Positions 4,305-63,825 of a DNA stretch of 64,000 nt are shown here, one piece after another (the first letter of the stretch is position 1; every line of letters starts with the position of its first letter). The position numbers were made by a program, and so were the translations under genes. The notes beneath the pieces are model-generated. The model was not told where the DNA came from and made no database searches. It was given only the letters and a program-made list of their open reading frames with translations. The DNA comes from Procambarus clarkii. Lineage: Eukaryota > Arthropoda > Malacostraca > Decapoda > Cambaridae. The DNA lies in assembly GCF_040958095.1 (NCBI RefSeq), contig NC_091181.1, forward strand, positions 27,492,904 to 27,556,903, in the 5' to 3' direction.

Positions 4305-24036
<19,732 letters not shown>

Positions 24037-49500: not shown

Positions 49501-50844
49501 GCTTGCGGGGGTTGAGTTCTGCTCTCTTGGCCCGCCTCTCAATTGTCAATCAATCAACTGTTACTAACTACTAATTTTTTTTTTAACACACACACACACA
49601 CACCATTGTGGTCTCTGTGGTTGGAAAATATTGGAGGGGTGACAGGTAAGCTAACATGAATGAAAAATTTTCTGACTGATAGAAAAATGAGGGCAGTAAT
49701 GAGAGGCAATGTATCGGACTGGAGAAATGTCACAAGTGGAGTACCACACTGGTTCTTGCACCAGTGATGTTTATTGTCTACATAAATGATCTACCAGTTG
49801 GTATACAGAATTATATAAATATGTTTGCTGATGATGCTAAGATAATAGGAAGGATAAGAAACTAAGATGATTGTCATGCCCTTCAAGAAGACCTGGACAA
49901 TATAAGTATATGGAGCAATACTTGGCAAATGGAATTTAATGTTAATAAATGCCATGTTATGGAATAGGAGAACATAGACCCCCCACACAACCTATATATT
50001 ATGTGAGAAATCTTTAAAGAATTCTGACAAAGAAAGGGATCTAGGGGTGGTTCTAGATATAAAACTGTCACCTGAGGATCACATTAAGAACATTGTGTGA
50101 GGAGCCTATGCTACACTTTCTAACTTCAGAATTGCTTTTAAATAAAGCAATACTGAAGAAATACTAAAGAAATTGTTCACAACTTTTGTTAGACCAAAGC
50201 TGGAATATGCAGCGGTAGTATGGTGCCCATATCTTACGAAGCACATCAACAAACTGGAAAAGGTGCAACAACATGTCACTAAGTGGCTCCCAGAACTGAA
50301 GGACAAGAGCTATGAGGAGAGGTTAGAGGCATTAAATATGCAAAAACTAGAAGATAGAAGAAAACGAGGCGATATGATCACTACATATAAAATAATAACA
50401 GGAATAAATAAAATTGATAAGGAAGAATTCCTGAGACCCGGAACTAGAGGTCATAGATTTAAACTCACGAAACAAAGCTGCCGGAGAAATATAAGAAAAT
50501 TCACTTTTGTAAACAGAGTGGTAGACGGTTGGAACAAGTTAGGTGAGAAGGTGGTGGAGGCCAAAACTGTCAGTAATTTCAAAGTGTTATATGACAAAGA
50601 GTGCTGGGGAGACGGGACATTACGAGCATAGTTCTCATCCTGTAACGACACTTAGGTAATTACACACACACAGGGGCCTCACCCCCATGTAGGAGCTCCT
50701 GGGGGTCTTAGTCCTAATGGCCCAGATTCAATTCCTGGCGGAGGCAGAAACAAACGGCGAGAGTTTCTTTCACCCTAATACCCCCTGTTCACCTAAGCAG
50801 TAAATAGGTACCTGGGAGTTAGACAGCTGCTATGGCTGCTTCCT

Positions 50845-54830: not shown

Positions 54831-54963
54831 CTGAAAATTTAATTACTGCTAATATCATATTTTTAATTAATGTACAATAGTAAAACAGCAAGACAAATAA
54901 TACAAAATTAAAAGTTCTCTTATATAGAATATATATATAAGAATTAACACACACACACATACA

Positions 54964-55695
54964 GGGCACTGTACTCGGTCCTATCTTGTTTCTGATGTAT
55001 GTAAATGATCTCCTGGAGGGTATTGATTCATTTCTCTCAATGTTTGCGGACGTTGCTAAAATTATGAGAAGGATTAAAACAGAAGAGGACTGTTTGAGGC
55101 TTCAAGAAGACCTAGACAAGCTGAAGGAATGGTCAAACAAATGGTTGTTAGAGTTTAACCAAACCAAATGTAATGTAATGAAGATAGGTGTAGGGAGCAG
55201 GAGGCCAGATACAAGGTATCATCTGGGAGAGAAATCTTCAGGAGTCAGAGAAAGAAAAAGACTTGGGGGTTGATATCACGCCAGACCTGTCTCCTGCAGC
55301 ACACATCAAGAGGATAACATCAGCGGCATATGCCAGGCTGGCCAACATACGAATAGCATTCAGAAACTTTTGTAAAGAATCGTTCAGAACTTTGTATACC
55401 ACATATGTCAGGCCAATCCTGGAGTATGCAGCCCCAGCATGGAGTCCACATCTAGTCAAGGATAAGACTAAACTGGAAAAGGTTCAAAGGTTTGCTATCA
55501 GACTAGTACCCGAGCTGAGAGGTATGAGCTACGAGGAGAGACTACGGGAATTAAACCTCACTTCGCTGGAAGACAGAAGAGTTAGGGGGGGGGGGACATG
55601 ATCACCACATTCCAGATTCTGAAGGGAATTGATAGGGTAGATAAAGACAGGCTATTTAACACAAGGGGCACACGCACTAGGGGACACAGGGGACT
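54964..55695 (+). mobile_element. LINE A, left part (interrupted by LINE B)
   Basis: RT from the palm on: GTVLGPILFLMYVNDLLEG, NVFADD-type box degenerated (SMFADVAKIM), then KLKEWSNKWLLEFNQTKCNV, a frameshift near 55255, and YVRPILEYAAPAWSPHLVKD, KLEKVQRFAIRLVPELRGMS. It ends near 'cacgcactaggggacacagg'. The missing continuation (HRWKLSAQ...) is found at 59482, after LINE B. CR1/L2-like. A G-run at 55587-55595 marks another probable indel. Confidence 0.85.
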
Positions 55696-56553
55696 TTGAA
55701 TAGCAAAGTTTTATGTCTTGAGGGTTTAGTGAAAGACTTGCGCAAGGATAAGAATCAATTGGAAACAAATTGCAAAGCCATGGAAGAAGAAAATAAACTC
55801 TTAAAAATAGCTTTGGAAGAAGTTAAAGTAAATTTAAACATAAATGACTACAATAGGTTAGGCAAGGAAATTCAACAGGAGAAACAGCTTTTGTCAGCAC
55901 AGATGGAGGAAGTTACACAGGGAATAGAACAGTGCAAGAAAGATATGCAACTCACTTATGCACAAGTGGCCAAGGAGAAGGAAAAAATAGAAGAAGCAGT
56001 AAAGGAAGTCAAACACTGCAGCAACCATGATAAAACAAACATTAGGCTAGAAGTGAGGAAAGAATTGGCATCTAACCCGAAGTTGGTGCAAAACACAGTT
56101 GATCGGAGTAAGTCCCTGATCATTTTTGGCTGCAAAGAAAAGGCGATAACATCTAGGTCAGAAAGAGCTGTAGAAGAAGCTAAAGTAGTAGATAAAATTG
56201 TTGGCCTCGTGGAAGGTCTTACAAACAGAGAGAATGTGTGCGACTACAGGAGAATAGGCAGGTACGTAAAAGGGAAAGATCGACCTTTGAGGATCACCCT
56301 AAACGGTGCCAAACAGATGGAAGAAGTACTAAGGAATGCTAGAAAATTGCAAAGGGATGAGGATGGGAAAGGGTGGTCGTTAAGACGAGATCTTTCAAAA
56401 GAAGATAGAGAGAAGCTGAAACTGAACCTCGCCGAGGCAAAACATTTAAATGAGAGCAGGAATGAAGAAGAAATAAATTCTTTTTTCTACAAAGTGATAG
56501 GGGTAGGCAAACCAGTAAAGTGGTACATAAAGGCAAACCAACAAAATCAATAG
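55696..56553 (+). CDS. LINE B ORF1 (coiled-coil RNA-binding-type protein, N-terminus missing)
   Basis: 285 codons open to TAG at 56551-56553. First half: charged heptad-rich, likely coiled coil (LRKDKNQLETNCKAMEEENK, QAQMEEVTQGIEQCKKDMQL-like spacing). Second half: a folded segment (SLIIFGCKEKAITSR, NVCDYRRIGRYVKGKDRPLR, LRNARKLQRDEDGKGWSLRR) resembling the RRM-like/CTD pair of LINE ORF1 proteins. By comparison with 61761-62081 about 70 N-terminal residues are lost by 5' truncation, so there is no true ATG here. The last 29 codons overlap ORF2 in the -1 frame. Confidence 0.85.
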   Translation: MNSKVLCLEGLVKDLRKDKNQLETNCKAMEEENKLLKIALEEVKVNLNINDYNRLGKEIQQEKQLLSAQMEEVTQGIEQCKKDMQLTYAQVAKEKEKIEEAVKEVKHCSNHDKTNIRLEVRKELASNPKLVQNTVDRSKSLIIFGCKEKAITSRSERAVEEAKVVDKIVGLVEGLTNRENVCDYRRIGRYVKGKDRPLRITLNGAKQMEEVLRNARKLQRDEDGKGWSLRRDLSKEDREKLKLNLAEAKHLNESRNEEEINSFFYKVIGVGKPVKWYIKANQQNQ

Positions 56554-59434
56554 AGAGAGGGGGAGTGAAGAATAAGGAAAGGGGGAACAAGTTCCTGAAG
56601 ATTGCATACACCAACATAGATGGAGCGAGATCGAAGATACTGGAGTTAAGTGATGTAATACAGCTGCAGACACCAGACATTGTTGCACTCACGGAGACAA
56701 AACTTGAAGATGTAATTTTAAATGAGGTCATATTCCCAAGGGGCTACTCAATTTGGAGACGGGACAGAAAAATTAGGAAAGGCGGTGGCGTTGCTGTGCT
56801 GGTAAAAGAACACCTAAAGGTGAAGGAAATAATGACTGCCAATCCACAAGAAGTTGACATAATAGCACTAGAGATCTGCTATGAGGATGATAAACTAATG
56901 ATGATAAATGCATATAGTCCACCGCCAAGCAGCACATGGTCAAAGGAGGAGCTAGATAGTAAACGTGAAGGTCTTATAACAATAATGAGAGAGATTATAG
57001 CGAGAGCGGATAACGATAGATCACGACTGTTGATAGTCGGTGACTTCAACTTGAAATCCATAGACTGGGAAGCATATGAAGCTAAAACAGAAGATTTTTG
57101 GACCTGTAAATTTGTAGACCTCATCCTGGAAACATTCTTGTATCAACATGTTAAACAAGCTACGAGGATGAGGGAAGGGGACGTTCCCTCCATGCTAGAT
57201 TTGATATTTACCAGGAAGGCGGAAGAGATATTTGACATTCAGTACCTTCCTCCCTTGGGTAAAAGTGACCATGTCTTTTTGGGAATAAAGTATGCAATGC
57301 GTTATAAGCTGGAAGAAAATAAGGAGGTTGAAGCAGTTGAAAAACCAGACTTCAGGAGAGGACATTATGGTGACCTTAGAAATTTTTTTAGTGAGTATAA
57401 TTGGACAGACTTGATGCTAGGCAAGGAAGTGAATGAGATGTATGGCAAGTTTTGTGAAATATATGATAAAGGCACAAAAAAATTTATACCAAAACAGAGA
57501 TGCAGAACTAGGAAACAGGATTGGTTCAATAGAAATTGCGAGAGGGCTAGAGACCGAAAGACACAAAAATGGAATCAATACAGGAAGAGGCCGAACCCCC
57601 AAACATACCAGCGATACAAAGATGCGAGAAACAACTACACGGCAGTGAGGAGAGAGGCAGAAAGAAATTTTGAAAAAGGGATTGCGGACAAATGTAAAAC
57701 AGAACCAGGTCTATTCTATAAATTCATAAACAACAAATTGCAGGTAAAGGATAATATTCAGAGGTTGAAAATGGGAAATAGATTCACGGAAGATGAAAAG
57801 GAAATGTGTGAAACACTAAACGAAAAGTTCCAAAGTGTGTTTGTACAAAATGAAATCTTTAGGGAACCAGATACAATAAGAATTCCAGAGAACAACATAG
57901 AACACATAGAGGTGTCTAGAGACGAAGTGGAAAAAATGCTCAAAGAGCTCGGTAAGGACAAAGCAGCTGGCCCAGATGGCGTTTCACCATGGGTTCTGAG
58001 AGAATGTGCATCTGAGCTCAGCATTCCACTTCACCTGATCTTTCAGGCATCCCTGTGTACAGGAATCGTAGCAGACGGGTGGAAACAGGCTAACATAGTT
58101 CCAATCTACAAAAGTGGAAGCAGGGAAGACCCCCTCAATTATAGACCTGTATCATTGACAAGTGTAATAGTGAAAGTATTGGAAAAACTAATCAAAACTA
58201 AATGGGTAGAACACCTAGAGAGAAATGATATAATATCAGACAGACAGTATGGTTTTCGATCTGGAAGATCCTGCGTATCGAATTTACTAAGTTTCTATGA
58301 TCGAGCCACAGAGATATTACAGGAAAGAGATGGTTGGGTTGACTGCATCTATCTGGACCTAAAAAAGGCTTTCGACAGAGTTCCACATAAGAGGTTGTTC
58401 TGGAAACTGGAAAATATTGGAGGGGTGACAGGTAAGCTTCTATCATGGATGAAAAATTTCTGACTGATAGAAAAATGAGGGCAGTAATCAGAGGCAATGT
58501 ATCAGAATGGAGAAATGTCACAAGTGGAGTACCACAGGGTTCAGTTCTTGCACCAGTGATGTTTATTGTGTACATAAATGATCTACCAGTTGGTATACAG
58601 AATTATATGAACATGTTTGCTGATGATGCTAAGATAATAGGAAGGATAAGAAATTTAGATGACTGTCATGCCCTTCAAGAAGACCTGGACAAAATAAGTA
58701 TATGGAGCACCACTTGGCAAATGGAATTTAATGTTAATAAATGTCATGTTATGGAATGTGGAATAGGAGAACATAGACCCCACACAACCTATATATTATG
58801 TGAGAAATCTTTAAAGAATTCTGATAAAGAAAGAGATCTAGGAGTGGTTCTAGATAGAAAACTATCACCTGAGGACCACATAAAGAATATTGTGCAAGGA
58901 GCCTATGCTATGCTTTCTAACTTCAGAATTGCATTTAAATACATGGATGGCAATATACTAAAGAAATTGTTCATGACTTTTGTTAGGCCAAAGCTAGAAT
59001 ATGCAGCTGTTGTGTGGTGCCCATATCTTAAGAAGCACATCAACAAACTGGAAAAGGTGCAAAGACATGCTACTAAGTGGCTCCCAGAACTGAAGGGCAA
59101 GAGCTACGAGGAGAGGTTAGAAGCATTAAATATGCCAAAACTAGAAGACAGAAGAAAAAGAGGTGATATGATCACTACATACAAAATAGTAACAGGAATT
59201 GATAAAATCGACAGGGAAGACTTCCTGAGACCTGGAATTTCAAGAACAAGAGGTCATAGATTTAAACTAGCTAAACACAGATGCCGAAGAAATATAAGAA
59301 AATTCACCTTCGCAAATAGAGTGGTAGACGGTTGGAACAAGTTAAGTGAGAAGGTGGTGGAGGCCAAGACCGTCAGTAGTTTCAAAGCGTTATATGACAA
59401 AGAGTGCTGGGAAGACGGGACACCACGAGCGTAG
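56466..59434 (+). CDS. LINE B ORF2: APE endonuclease and reverse transcriptase, one 1-nt deletion
   Basis: The frame is open from 56466. Endonuclease: FLKIAYTNIDGARSKILELS, ALTETKL, GGGVAVLV, VGDFNLKSIDW (GDFN box), SMLDLIFTR and GKSDHVFLGIKY (SDH box, catalytic His). [99 protein letters not shown] and MFADDAKII (catalytic Asp pair), then the thumb [14 protein letters not shown] and [20 protein letters not shown]. One base is missing near 58461 (TTT-C-TGA), which splits the frame at 58463. The sister copy at 49620 is correct at that spot. No AUG precedes the endonuclease domain in this frame. Confidence 0.9.
56481..56487 (+). promoter_or_regulatory. Candidate -1 ribosomal frameshift heptamer in the ORF1/ORF2 overlap
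   Basis: T_TTT_TTC lies in phase with ORF1 (codons TCT TTT TTC, Ser-Phe-Phe at 56479-56487). ORF2 lies in the -1 frame and is open from 56466 through the overlap (56466-56553), so a slip here would make an ORF1-ORF2 fusion. Slippery sites of the form U_UUU_UUC work in other retroelements (established knowledge). Use by this LINE is inference. Confidence 0.4.
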
Positions 59435-59480
59435 CTCTCATCCTGTAACTACACTTAGGTAATTACACTTAGGTAATTAC

Positions 59481-59740
59481 AGGTGGAAACTGAGTGCCCA
59501 AATGAGACACAGAGATATTAGAAAGAACTTTTTTAGTATCAGAGTAGTTGACAAATGGAATGCATTAGGAAGTGATGTGGTGGAGGCTGACTCCATACAG
59601 TTTCAAGTGTAGATATGATAGAGCCCAACATGCTCAGGAATCTGTACACCTGTTGACTGACGGTTGAGAGGCGGGACCAAAGAGCCAGAGCTCAACCCCC
59701 GCAAACACAACTAGGTGAGTACAACTAGGTGAGTACACAC
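59481..59740 (+). mobile_element. LINE A, right part and 3' tail
   Basis: Resumes LINE A after LINE B: WKLSAQMRHRDIRKNFFSIR, VVDKWNALGSDVVEADSI. The 3' UTR 'ctgacggttgagaggcggga' and 'agctcaacccccgcaaacac' ends in 'aactaggtgagtacaactag' and a CA run. The tail is shared with type 1 SINEs. A second copy of this end lies at 61195-61515. Confidence 0.85.
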
Positions 59741-60130: not shown

Positions 60131-60134
60131 CATT

Positions 60135-61195
60135 GGAGGGGTGACAGGTAAGTCTCTAACATGGATGAAAAATTTCCTGAAAGAAAAATGAGGGCCGTAA
60201 TCAGAGGCAATGTACTGGATTAGTGGAATGTCACAAGTGGAGTACCACAGGGTTCAGTTCTTGCACCGGTAATGTTCATTGTCTACATAAATTATCTACC
60301 AGTTGGAATACAGAATTATATGAACATGTTTGATGATGATGCTAAGATAATAGGAAGGATAAGAAACTTAGATGATTGTCATGCCCTTCAAGAAGACCTG
60401 GACAAAATAAGTATATGGAGCACCACTTGGCAAATGGAATTTAATGTGAATAAATGCCATGTTATGGAATGTGGAATTGCAGAACATAGACCCCCATACA
60501 ACCTATAAATTATGTGAGAAATCTTTAAAGAATTCTGATAAAGAAAGAGATCTAGGGGGTGGTTCTAGATAGAAAACTATCACCTGAGGACCACATAAAG
60601 AATATTGTGCAAGGAGCCTATGCTATGCTTTCTAACTTCAGAATTGCGTTTAAATACATGGATGGCGATATACTAAAGAAATTGTTCATGACTTTTGTTA
60701 GGCCAAAGCTAGAATATGCAGCTGTTGTGTGGTGCCCATATCTTAGGAAACACATCAACAAACTGGAAAAGGTGCAAAGACATGCTACTAAATGGCTCCC
60801 AGAACTGAAGGGCAAGAGCTACGAGGAGAGGTTAGAAGCATTAAACATGCCAAAACTAGAAGACAGAAGAAAAAGAGGTGATATGATCACTACGTACAAA
60901 ATAGTAACAGGAATTGATAAAATCGACAGGGAAGATTTCCTGAGACCTGGCACTTCAAGAACAAGAGGTCATAGATATAAACTAGCTAAACACAGATGCC
61001 GAAGAAATATAAGAAAATTCACCTTCGCAAATAGAGTGGTAGACGGTTGGAACAAGTTAAGTGAGAAGGTGGTGGAGGCCAAGACCGTCAGTAGTTTCAA
61101 AGCGTTATATGACAAAGAGTGCTGGGAAGACGGGACACCACGAGCGTAGCTCTCATCCTGTAACTACATTTAGGTAATTACACTTAGGTAATTAC
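60135..61195 (+). mobile_element. LINE B copy, 5'-truncated
   Basis: From 'cattggaggggtgacaggta' through 'gagtaccacagggttcag' (VPQGS), MFDDDAKII (the FADD box changed to FDDD), and 60559-61149 open for 196 codons (thumb to C-terminus, ending KALYDKECWEDGTPRA). The tail is two copies of 'cttaggtaattac'. It is about 95% identical to 58440-59480 by eye, with a frameshift near 60555. Confidence 0.9.
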
Positions 61196-61524: not shown

Positions 61525-62587
61525 CTGTGTGTGTGTCATCTCCCAACACACAGTACTGTAGTTGAAAGGTGACACCCTCTTGTGTCAACACCTGCATCAG
61601 AGGAGCTCCAGGATATTTCAAAATTCCTAAGTATTGCAGAACAGGTTGATAGTGAGTGGTGTCCCATGGAATATAAAGGTGTAGTGCTTTTGAAAAATAG
61701 GCAAGATAACACGAATGTGCCTGGGGAAGTGAAAAAATTGGATGAGAAAAAGTTGCCCTAGTGTTAACAGTGCAGACTATGAAATTCAAGATGGCTGCCG
61801 GCAAGAGGAAAAACAAAACAGAGCTAGATTTTGGTTTCGGTGAAGAAAGCATTGATATAAGCAGTCTACACAACAAGTTGGCAAAATTAGATATTATAGT
61901 GAACTATCATAGAGAAATAATCAGCAAATTGAGAGAAAGTAATGACCACTTGAGTAGCAAAGTATTAGGTCTTGGGGGGTTAGTGAAAAATATATGCAAG
62001 GAAAAGAATCAGTTGGAAACAAATTGCAAAGCTATGAAAGAAAAAAAACAAACTCTTGAAAACAGCTTTGCAAAACATTAAAGCAAATTTAAACAAATGA
62101 CTACAAAAGGTTAGGTAAGGAAATTCAACAGGGAAAAACAGCTTTTGTCAGTACAGATGGAGGAACTTACACAGGGAATAGAACAGCGCAAGAAGGATAT
62201 GCAACTCACTTACTTACAAGTAGCCAAGTAGAAGGAAAAAATAGAAAAAGCAGTAAAGGAAGCTACAATGCAAACACTGCTGCAACCAGGATAAAACAAA
62301 CATTAGGCTGGAAGTCAGAAAGGAATTGGCATCAAACCCAAAATTGATGCAAAACACAGTCGATCGAAGTCCTTAATAATTTTGGTTACAAAGAAGAAAA
62401 GGAGATAATTTCTAGGTCAGAAAGAGCTGTAGAAGAAGCAAACGTAATAGATGCAATTGTTGGGCTAGTGAAAAGTCTTACAACCATAGAGAATATCTGC
62501 GACTACAGGAGAATTGGCAGGTACATAAAAGAGAAAGATTGACCTTTGAGGATCACCCTAAATGGTGCCAAACAGATGGAAGAAGTA
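61525..62587 (+). mobile_element. LINE B 5' region (5' UTR and ORF1 start)
   Basis: 61525-61760 is a likely 5' UTR. The ATG at 61779 (MKFKMAAGKRKNKTELDFGF) starts an ORF1 that stays open to 62081 and then shows frameshifts and stops. Downstream words match 55860-56340 of the nearly intact copy. It supplies the N-terminus missing there. It ends at 62587, where a Tigger element begins. Confidence 0.8.
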
Positions 62588-63455
62588 CAGTGGCACCTCG
62601 ACTTACGATTACCCTGACTTACGATAATTTTGAGTTACCATATAAATTTGATCGGAAAATGCAACTCGACTTACGATAGTGTCGTCGACTAATGATATTT
62701 GTTGATACACGTTTGGGTTGACCGAGCACATGGTTCCCTGTCACACAGGCCGACCTGCCTCAGTTTACTAGAGCCACCCGCTTAGTGACGATCACGCTTA
62801 TGAGAAATTCTATTTTTTTGGTGATGTTTTGCTTTTTGAACATAAAACCAATTATTATATATCATGCCATAGGTCCCACGAAAGTCAGTGATAAGGTTCA
62901 ACATATAAAAACACATGTGAGGATGACCATAGAGGCAGTACAGAATATCCCTTCCTCAAAAATTAAGAAAATTTTTGCAGCATGGGAAGAACTGAAAACT
63001 TTTGCTGAAATGACTCGCCTAAATCAAGCAGCAGTAGGCTGTTGCCTTAACCTTTTTAATGACACTGTGATGCATCACTACAGGTAAATATTAAAATGAA
63101 GGGTAAAACAAGTGTCACTAGACAAATTTTTAGTGAGACAAACTAGCAGTGAATCACAACCTGGTCCTAGTGGTATGCAGGCAAAACGTAAGAGAGTGTA
63201 CCCCAGAGAAATCATTACTGCCTGATGTTATAATGGAAAGGGACTCCCCTTCCAAACATTAACACCTCTCCTCCTCCTCCCCCCTCATCACCATCTTCCA
63301 TACGCCATCAAGAGTCCTCCATAAAGGTAAGATAAACGTATGTACTGTATTGTAGTTAGAAAAAAAAAATTGTATTCAATATAAAATGTATTTTTAAGTT
63401 AAGATTTCTGGGGCTGTGGAATGGATTAATTCAATTCCCTTTATTTCTCTTTATA
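62588..63455 (+). mobile_element. Tigger-type element, 3' end lost
   Basis: Left end CAGTGGCACCTCGACTTACG after TA (62586-62587), inserted in LINE B ORF1 sequence. The frame 62785-63087 includes the start region and then jumps to the C-terminal domain (WEELKTFAEMTRLNQAAVGC, LFNDTVMHHYR), indicating an internal deletion. The right end is not found; sequence changes to LINE B 3' part at about 63456. Confidence 0.8.
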
Positions 63456-63825
63456 GGAGAGATTAGAGGCATTGAATATGCCAAAACTAGAAGATAGAAG
63501 AAAAAGAGACGATATCATCACTACATATAAAAATAATAACAGGAATCGCTAAAATTTATAGGGAAGAATTCCCGAGACCTGGAACTTCAAGAACAAGAGG
63601 TCGTAGACTTAAACTAACTAAACAAAGCTGCTCAAGAAATATAAAAAAATTCCCCTTTCACAAACAGATTGGTAGACAGTTGGAACAAGTTAGGTGAGAA
63701 GGTGCTAGAAGCCAAAACCATCAGTAATTTCAAAGCGTTATACTAGTATGACGAAGAGTGCTGGGAAGATGGGACACCACGAGCATAGCTCTCATTCTGT
63801 AACTACAATTAGGTAATTACTCACT
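63456..63825 (+). mobile_element. LINE B 3' end, degenerate
   Basis: 'gagagattagaggcattgaa' onward matches 59111-59460 (thumb to tail), with frameshifts, ending 'acaattaggtaattac'. It carries none of the RT core, so the middle of LINE B is absent between 62587 and here. Confidence 0.8.

Follow-up and report, generated by a model that had tools for sequence, protein, structure and literature searches.

LINE B is a long interspersed nuclear element (LINE) of Procambarus clarkii, one copy of which lies in a 64,000-nucleotide (nt) stretch of contig NC_091181.1 (hereafter the window, that is, the whole stretch that was analysed; LINE B coordinates are window positions). In intact young copies its second open reading frame (ORF2) lacks any AUG ahead of the endonuclease, most of the older relatives compared do have such an AUG, and the ORF2 frame is open in the -1 phase across the end of ORF1, where it contains a heptanucleotide slip site phased to ORF1. 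The route that we tentatively favour, and the likeliest one by a small margin, is that LINE B ORF2 lost an ancestral AUG through an ATG to AAG change at 56589-56591 and, with no usable AUG left, is now produced as an ORF1-ORF2 fusion arising by -1 ribosomal slippage. That is, a minority of the ribosomes finishing ORF1 would slip back by one nucleotide on U_UUU_UUC and continue along the open -1 frame to give the fusion protein. Both the slippage itself and the role of the fusion as the working protein are inferences.

The ORF1/ORF2 junction of LINE B

Reading of the open frames in the window placed the ORF1 stop-to-stop frame at 55681-56553 and the ORF2 frame at 56466-58463, in the -1 frame relative to ORF1, the two overlapping over 56466-56553 (29 codons including the stop). 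The heptamer T_TTT_TTC at 56481-56487 falls inside this overlap and is canonical and in phase, as expected of a frameshift cassette, with TTT (56482-56484) and TTC (56485-56487) read as ORF1 codons. The ORF2 frame opens 15 nt 5′ of the heptamer and stays open through to the endonuclease. The features of the window copy are as follows.

55697 to 56553, forward strand: ORF1 of LINE B, truncated at its 5′ end (truncation point read by eye; 339 amino acids in intact copies), with UAG stop at 56551-56553
56466 to 56553, forward strand: ORF1/ORF2 overlap, with ORF2 in the -1 frame, from frame comparison
56466 to 58463, forward strand: first piece of the ORF2 frame, with the endonuclease and the start of the reverse transcriptase; 3′ end broken in the window copy
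56481 to 56487, forward strand: candidate -1 slip site T_TTT_TTC, phased to ORF1; found unchanged in all 20 near-identical copies
56550 to 56553, forward strand: AUAG, formed by an ORF2-frame AUA that runs into the ORF1 stop (UAG) and is a candidate for a non-AUG restart; 9 of 12 older relatives read CTAG
56565 to 56567, forward strand: ORF2-frame GUG, candidate restart, starting 12 nt past the ORF1 stop, with G at -3 and A at +4
56589 to 56591, forward strand: AAG, presumed lost ORF2 start codon; ATG in 9 of 12 older relatives
56598 to 57272, forward strand: APE-type endonuclease domain of ORF2, ends approximate, from Pfam PF03372 (6.1e-15) and the exonuclease III alignment
56832 to 56834, forward strand: first ORF2-frame AUG, 3′ of the YTN and TETK endonuclease motifs
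58436 to 59434, forward strand: second piece of ORF2 in another frame, with the remaining reverse transcriptase and the C-terminus, from frames and Pfam

With respect to the -1 frame and its 29-codon overlap, the phased heptamer, and the lack of an AUG ahead of the endonuclease, a preliminary description of this DNA made from the sequence alone was thus borne out. The window copy itself is damaged, ORF1 being truncated at the 5′ end and ORF2 broken near 58436-58463, the latter a point absent from the preliminary description. Pfam searches of the first ORF2 piece gave PF03372 at 6.1e-15 over residues 50-269 (numbered in the frame that starts at 56466) and PF00078 (1.9e-14), and those of the second piece gave PF00078 (2.1e-12), so that LINE B ORF2 has the APE endonuclease and reverse transcriptase that an APE-type two-ORF LINE requires. 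Alignment with E. coli exonuclease III starts at residue 40 of the frame from 56481, at about 56598. For ORF1, where a coiled coil would be looked for in such a LINE, no Pfam family was found at 0.001, and helices were predicted at residues 24-100 and 103-159 by AlphaFold2 run on the single sequence without relatives, with a mean predicted local distance difference test score of 55.5 and the rest of the model mostly low.

No AUG of the SART1 type overlaps the ORF1 stop, AUAG standing there instead, and LINE B has no in-frame AUG near the stop. The first ORF2-frame AUG, at 56832, lies inside the endonuclease and 3′ of the motifs YTNIDG (56607) and TETKL (56691), which we take to contain the catalytic Asn and Glu; because both motifs lie 5′ of it, a start at 56832 would not yield a full endonuclease. 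That AUG is moreover preceded, after the ORF1 stop, by four AUGs that are all out of frame, which together with the loss of the first endonuclease motifs favours a non-AUG route to ORF2. Apart from slippage, such a route could be termination at the ORF1 UAG followed by restart at the AUA (56550), at the GUG (56565) or at another near-cognate codon, as the remnant of a stop-then-AUG arrangement. We hold this re-initiation to be a serious possibility as well, although it has to do without any in-frame AUG left near the stop.

Near-identical copies

The junction region 56300-56700 was searched in the 4.03-Gb genome, which returned 1,094 first-look candidates; the best 40, which were scored and include the window's own copy, all showed 100% identity (rounded). 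Twenty near-identical copies besides that of the window were taken with their flanks (L009-L028). The TTTTTTC heptamer is in phase in all 20, and both ORFs are intact in seven (L010, L013, L014, L015, L019, L020 and L023), with an ORF1 of 339 amino acids, 989 codons of ORF2 frame in which Met first appears at index 122, and a mean divergence among the seven of 0.5%. No ORF2 AUG stands ahead of the endonuclease in any of the 20: among the 13 that are not intact, the first Met stands at index 91 in L022, at 144 in L025 and at 122 in the rest, always past the endonuclease start where a Met is present, and in L012 the ORF2 frame terminates before any Met.

The intactness of these copies is unaffected by their having been selected for a match to the window. 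Judged from these sequences, the LINE B family is young, with some copies still intact, and since young intact copies do without an ORF2 AUG, the missing AUG is likely to be how the active element is built.

Older relatives and the ORF2 start codon

More distant copies were obtained with a divergent ORF1 piece of the window (61950-62588) as query, 40 matches being scored out of 2,856 candidates, so that the comparison covers best matches only. Thirty of the 40 are loci L029-L058, and the other ten supplied nine junctions; L029 (the window's own copy, without a junction) and L037 (match too short) were left out, giving, with the 20 near-identical copies, a comparison set of 57 copies, or 58 rows with the window. 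At 56589-56591, the 45 copies of at least 94% identity read AAG (41), GAG (1), -AG (1) and ATG (1, L066), the codon being deleted in the remaining one, whereas the 12 copies of at most 91% identity read ATG (9), AAG (2) and ATA (1). In a tree built from 45 distinct rows, with the 81% copy as root, the T to A change at 56590 was placed on an inner branch.

The sequence around the ORF1 stop differs in a similar manner, with AUAG in 40 of the 45 close copies versus CTAG in 9 of the 12 distant ones, a difference that speaks for re-initiation. In the older relatives the AUG follows shortly after the ORF1 stop, as re-initiation would have it, at a distance of 35 nt in L030 and L051 and of 28 nt in copies that have lost 7 bases after the stop, a loss common to seven of the 12 distant copies. 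The older form was therefore probably an ORF1 stop followed, about 28-38 nt later, by an AUG, and in the descent of LINE B the ORF2 AUG was probably lost through the ATG to AAG change. That the ATG at 56589-56591 was the ancestral ORF2 start is read from sequence only, because none of the nine distant copies read for frames over stretches of about 3.6 kb (L030, L033-L036, L047 and L049-L051), eight of which carry the ATG, looks intact in both ORFs. The preliminary description had held that intact family members with an in-frame AUG for ORF2 would refute frameshifting; such an AUG does occur, in 9 of the 12 relatives at or below 91% identity, but none of the eight AUG-bearing copies that were read looks intact, and LINE B has AAG.

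The relatives also bear on a further explanation, in which the synthesis of ORF2 follows some different route, for instance internal ribosome entry, or the protein is supplied in trans by an AUG-bearing relative. Such relatives exist; nevertheless, none of the eight that were read looks intact, as against 7 of the 20 LINE B copies intact in both ORFs. Use in cis is favoured because the LINE B reading frames have been kept, and we consider this explanation, by a different route or in trans, very improbable, although the argument against trans supply reaches no further than the best matches compared, and intact relatives may exist unseen beyond them.

A group of seven copies at 90% identity (six with ATG, one with ATA) was considered as an active AUG-bearing sister family and rejected, its members having the 7-base loss in common and several of them the same downstream break. 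Copies of LINE A were found, and the two loci L069 and L070 had no readable ORF1-ORF2 junction, so that this comparison was uninformative. Within the window there is no second junction, the partial copies at 49622-50665, 60132-61195, 61950-62588 and 63455-63820 not covering it. Searches by protein returned no relative in the viral_contigs and phages sets; the plasmids gave six weak bacterial matches of no use.

Variation at the slip site

The slip site could be read in 57 of the 58 rows (L068 was not readable). Of these, 45 keep the ORF1 length, eight have one base more, three one base less, and one two bases less. A phased canonical heptamer is present in 44 of the 45 length-keeping rows, in which the site has six Ts (40 rows), nine Ts (L061 and L066), A_AAA_AAA (L042 and L065) or C_TTT_TTC (L056, the sole length-keeping row without a heptamer). 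That is, where the letters of the site have changed without a change in length, a slippery run is still present in four of five rows (L042, L061, L065 and L066, not L056). L042, with A_AAA_AAA, has a whole ORF1 and 308 ORF2-frame codons before a stop; L065, with the same heptamer, has lost one base just downstream of the site.

One extra base at the site, as in the eight rows mentioned, fuses the ORF1 and ORF2 frames there. This raises another explanation, by which slippage on the six Ts by RNA polymerase or by the element's own reverse transcriptase would give some RNAs or new copies with seven Ts, in which ORF1 and ORF2 form one frame. Along with the eight rows with an extra base and the four with fewer, the occurrence of T7 on different backgrounds (L038/L039, L052, L058 and L067) is in its favour. 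Six bases are, however, short for transcriptional slippage, and changes in run length are expected in dead copies: among nine runs used as control, others vary in length as well, the A7 run at 57476 nearly as often (6 of 40), so that part of the variation at the site is ordinary homopolymer change. Nor was an intact T7 copy seen, L038, L039, L052 and L058 having other breaks and L067 being covered by 701 bases only. Polymerase or reverse transcriptase slippage therefore appears improbable.

Two observations concern such runs more generally. L038 and L039, about 36 kb apart on contig C58, are near-identical T7 copies that have their upstream repeat and a later break in common, and probably represent one insertion in a duplicated stretch. 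Within ORF2, a T7 run lies at 57383-57389, and in the otherwise close copies L028 and L042 the frame is lost after this run (ending ...DLRNFF).

Slippage or re-initiation

How readily the arrangement would arise by chance was estimated by shuffling. With shuffled ORF1 codons, some canonical phased heptamer occurred in 3324 of 20000 thirty-codon stretches, and T_TTT_TTH in 22 of 20000. When the overlap was rewritten with synonymous codons and the spacer shuffled, 2489 of 20000 versions (about 12%) had a -1 frame without stops as far as 56594. The figures for the heptamer and for the open frame are singly unimpressive and jointly suggestive. Re-initiation leaves unexplained why the open -1 frame reaches back across the last part of ORF1 as far as a phased slip site, even if this is within fair chance expectation.

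Several results weigh against slippage, the ease with which the open frame arises by chance being one of them. The agreement on the site in the 20 near-identical copies is partly by choice, because they were picked as the best matches to the window's own junction, and the 57 rows share ancestry and include many broken copies, which means that counts over them are not independent. T_TTT_TTC also occurs in five AUG-bearing copies at 88-90% identity in which the -1 frame hits stops (L035, L036, L047, L049 and L050), and coding for the ORF1 peptide NSFFYK could therefore account for the conservation of the site. Loss of the AUG was not a clean single step, since the close copy L066 (94%) has ATG. 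The preliminary description had named a conserved stem-loop or pseudoknot beginning 5-9 nt downstream of the heptamer as support, and this was not borne out: the structures folded for 113 nt starting at 56488 and for 68 nt starting at 56493 were not significant (z of -0.55 and -0.84), a rough script found no H-type pseudoknot 3′ of the site below zero, and the best hairpin with a start 5-13 nt downstream is weak, 3 of 60 shuffles having equalled it, leaving no convincing downstream stimulator of frameshifting. Codon-position counts in the overlap resemble dual coding, but with just 13 inner-branch changes on the tree they were not used as evidence. Finally, for ORF2 of SART1 and L1 the consulted parts of two reviews give re-initiation, not frameshifting (PMC2881922, PMC5972666).

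Re-initiation draws on published precedent in other ways too. The same excerpts describe ORF2 translation that depends on ORF1 for SART1 and L1 (PMC2881922) and re-initiation in calicivirus that tolerates changes of the start codon (PMC5972666), and a third paper, as far as its excerpt goes, deems AUG-independent initiation likelier for mammalian LINE ORF2 (PMC5009743). Overall, -1 slippage and non-AUG re-initiation come out about equal, with slippage slightly ahead because site, phase and open frame coincide and because four of the five rows with changed letters are still slippery. The proposal of an ORF1-ORF2 fusion by -1 slippage thus keeps its phase, its site in 20 of 20 copies, its seven intact copies and its lack of an AUG, and is weakened by the missing stimulator, by the presence of the site in AUG-bearing copies, which speaks against selection on the site itself as the cause of its conservation, and by the rival of re-initiation, which the preliminary description mentions only as a customary route in the clade; likewise, the conservation of the heptamer and the -1 phase that the preliminary description had named as support holds in the near-identical copies, but the heptamer also occurs in AUG-bearing ones. 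As the six-T site is found in AUG-bearing relatives, it probably predates the AUG loss and did not arise for slippage, suggesting that slippage, if real, probably took over existing ORF1 sequence.

Flanking sequences and neighbouring elements

Several LINE B 5′ ends, about 1,170-1,300 nt before the heptamer (e.g. in L011, L017, L021, L023, L025, L028, L040 and L053), adjoin microsatellites of the (AC)n or (TA)n type, arrays of greater length (L014 and L052) or the GTAATTACACTTAG tail of another LINE. As a raw count, 23 of the 41 copies that were scanned have an array of some kind 5′ of ORF1. There are hints in this that LINE B inserts into simple repeats and older LINE tails. The 3′ end of LINE B is a 14-base repeat, GTAATTACACTTAG, in two to three copies (about 59449-59482 in the window), which follows directly after ORF2 in 15 of the 20 near-identical copies. 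Elsewhere in the window, 54962-55690 and 14201-15009 (minus strand) belong to other LINE families, mostly 30-36% identical to the LINE B protein; a piece of the 54962-55690 element gave 192,742 first-look candidates in the genome.

Comparison with known systems

The arrangement of LINE B resembles that of gag and pol in long terminal repeat (LTR) retrotransposons and retroviruses, in which a structural ORF is likewise followed by an enzyme ORF in the -1 frame with a phased X_XXY_YYZ heptamer in the overlap, the gag-pol slip site of human immunodeficiency virus being U_UUU_UUA. It differs in that LINE B is a LINE, that no stimulator was found, and that its relatives have an AUG for the second ORF. 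In SART1, a silkworm LINE with UAAUG stop-start coupling, the ORF2 frame meets the end of ORF1 as in LINE B, where a restart codon could also overlap the stop; LINE B, however, has AUAG and not AUG at the stop, and for SART1 a structure downstream of the stop-start is mentioned in the review portion consulted (PMC5972666). Human LINE-1 shares with LINE B a helical ORF1, predicted as such in LINE B, and an ORF2 with APE endonuclease and reverse transcriptase, and its ORF2 start is possibly AUG-independent according to an excerpt (PMC5009743). It has, by another, a 63-nt spacer and an ORF2 AUG (PMC5972666), whereas the ORFs of LINE B overlap without an AUG.

LINEs of the CR1/L2 type also have two ORFs, an APE endonuclease and reverse transcriptase, and long ORF1 helices (predicted ones in LINE B), and L1-like type II ORF1s are reported from CR1 and L2 in the part of the source at hand (PMC4120745). 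LINE B differs in lacking the ORF2 AUG, and its CR1/L2 label comes from the preliminary description, made from sequence alone rather than by comparison with a reference LINE set. Among the matches listed, mainly from non-subscription literature, no title or abstract opening described a LINE whose ORF2 depends on a -1 frameshift at a heptamer. The gag gene of HeT-A was the nearest case, from an excerpt (PMC5009743); PMC1925062, PMC2734521 and PMC9115989 contributed nothing to this question.

What is new here is that at the start of the endonuclease, where AAG stands in LINE B, the sequences of the older relatives mostly show an AUG. To our knowledge, synthesis of the second LINE protein has been little studied outside L1 and SART1. 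These are also the two systems named in the available passages of the reviews (PMC2881922, PMC5972666). It is conceivable, if rather doubtful, that within one family, over about 10% divergence, stop-then-AUG re-initiation gave way to a -1 frameshift fusion, the slip site alternating between T_TTT_TTC and A_AAA_AAA with the frames kept. Intact young copies without an ORF2 AUG, standing beside AUG-bearing relatives, offer a before-and-after comparison within a single family.

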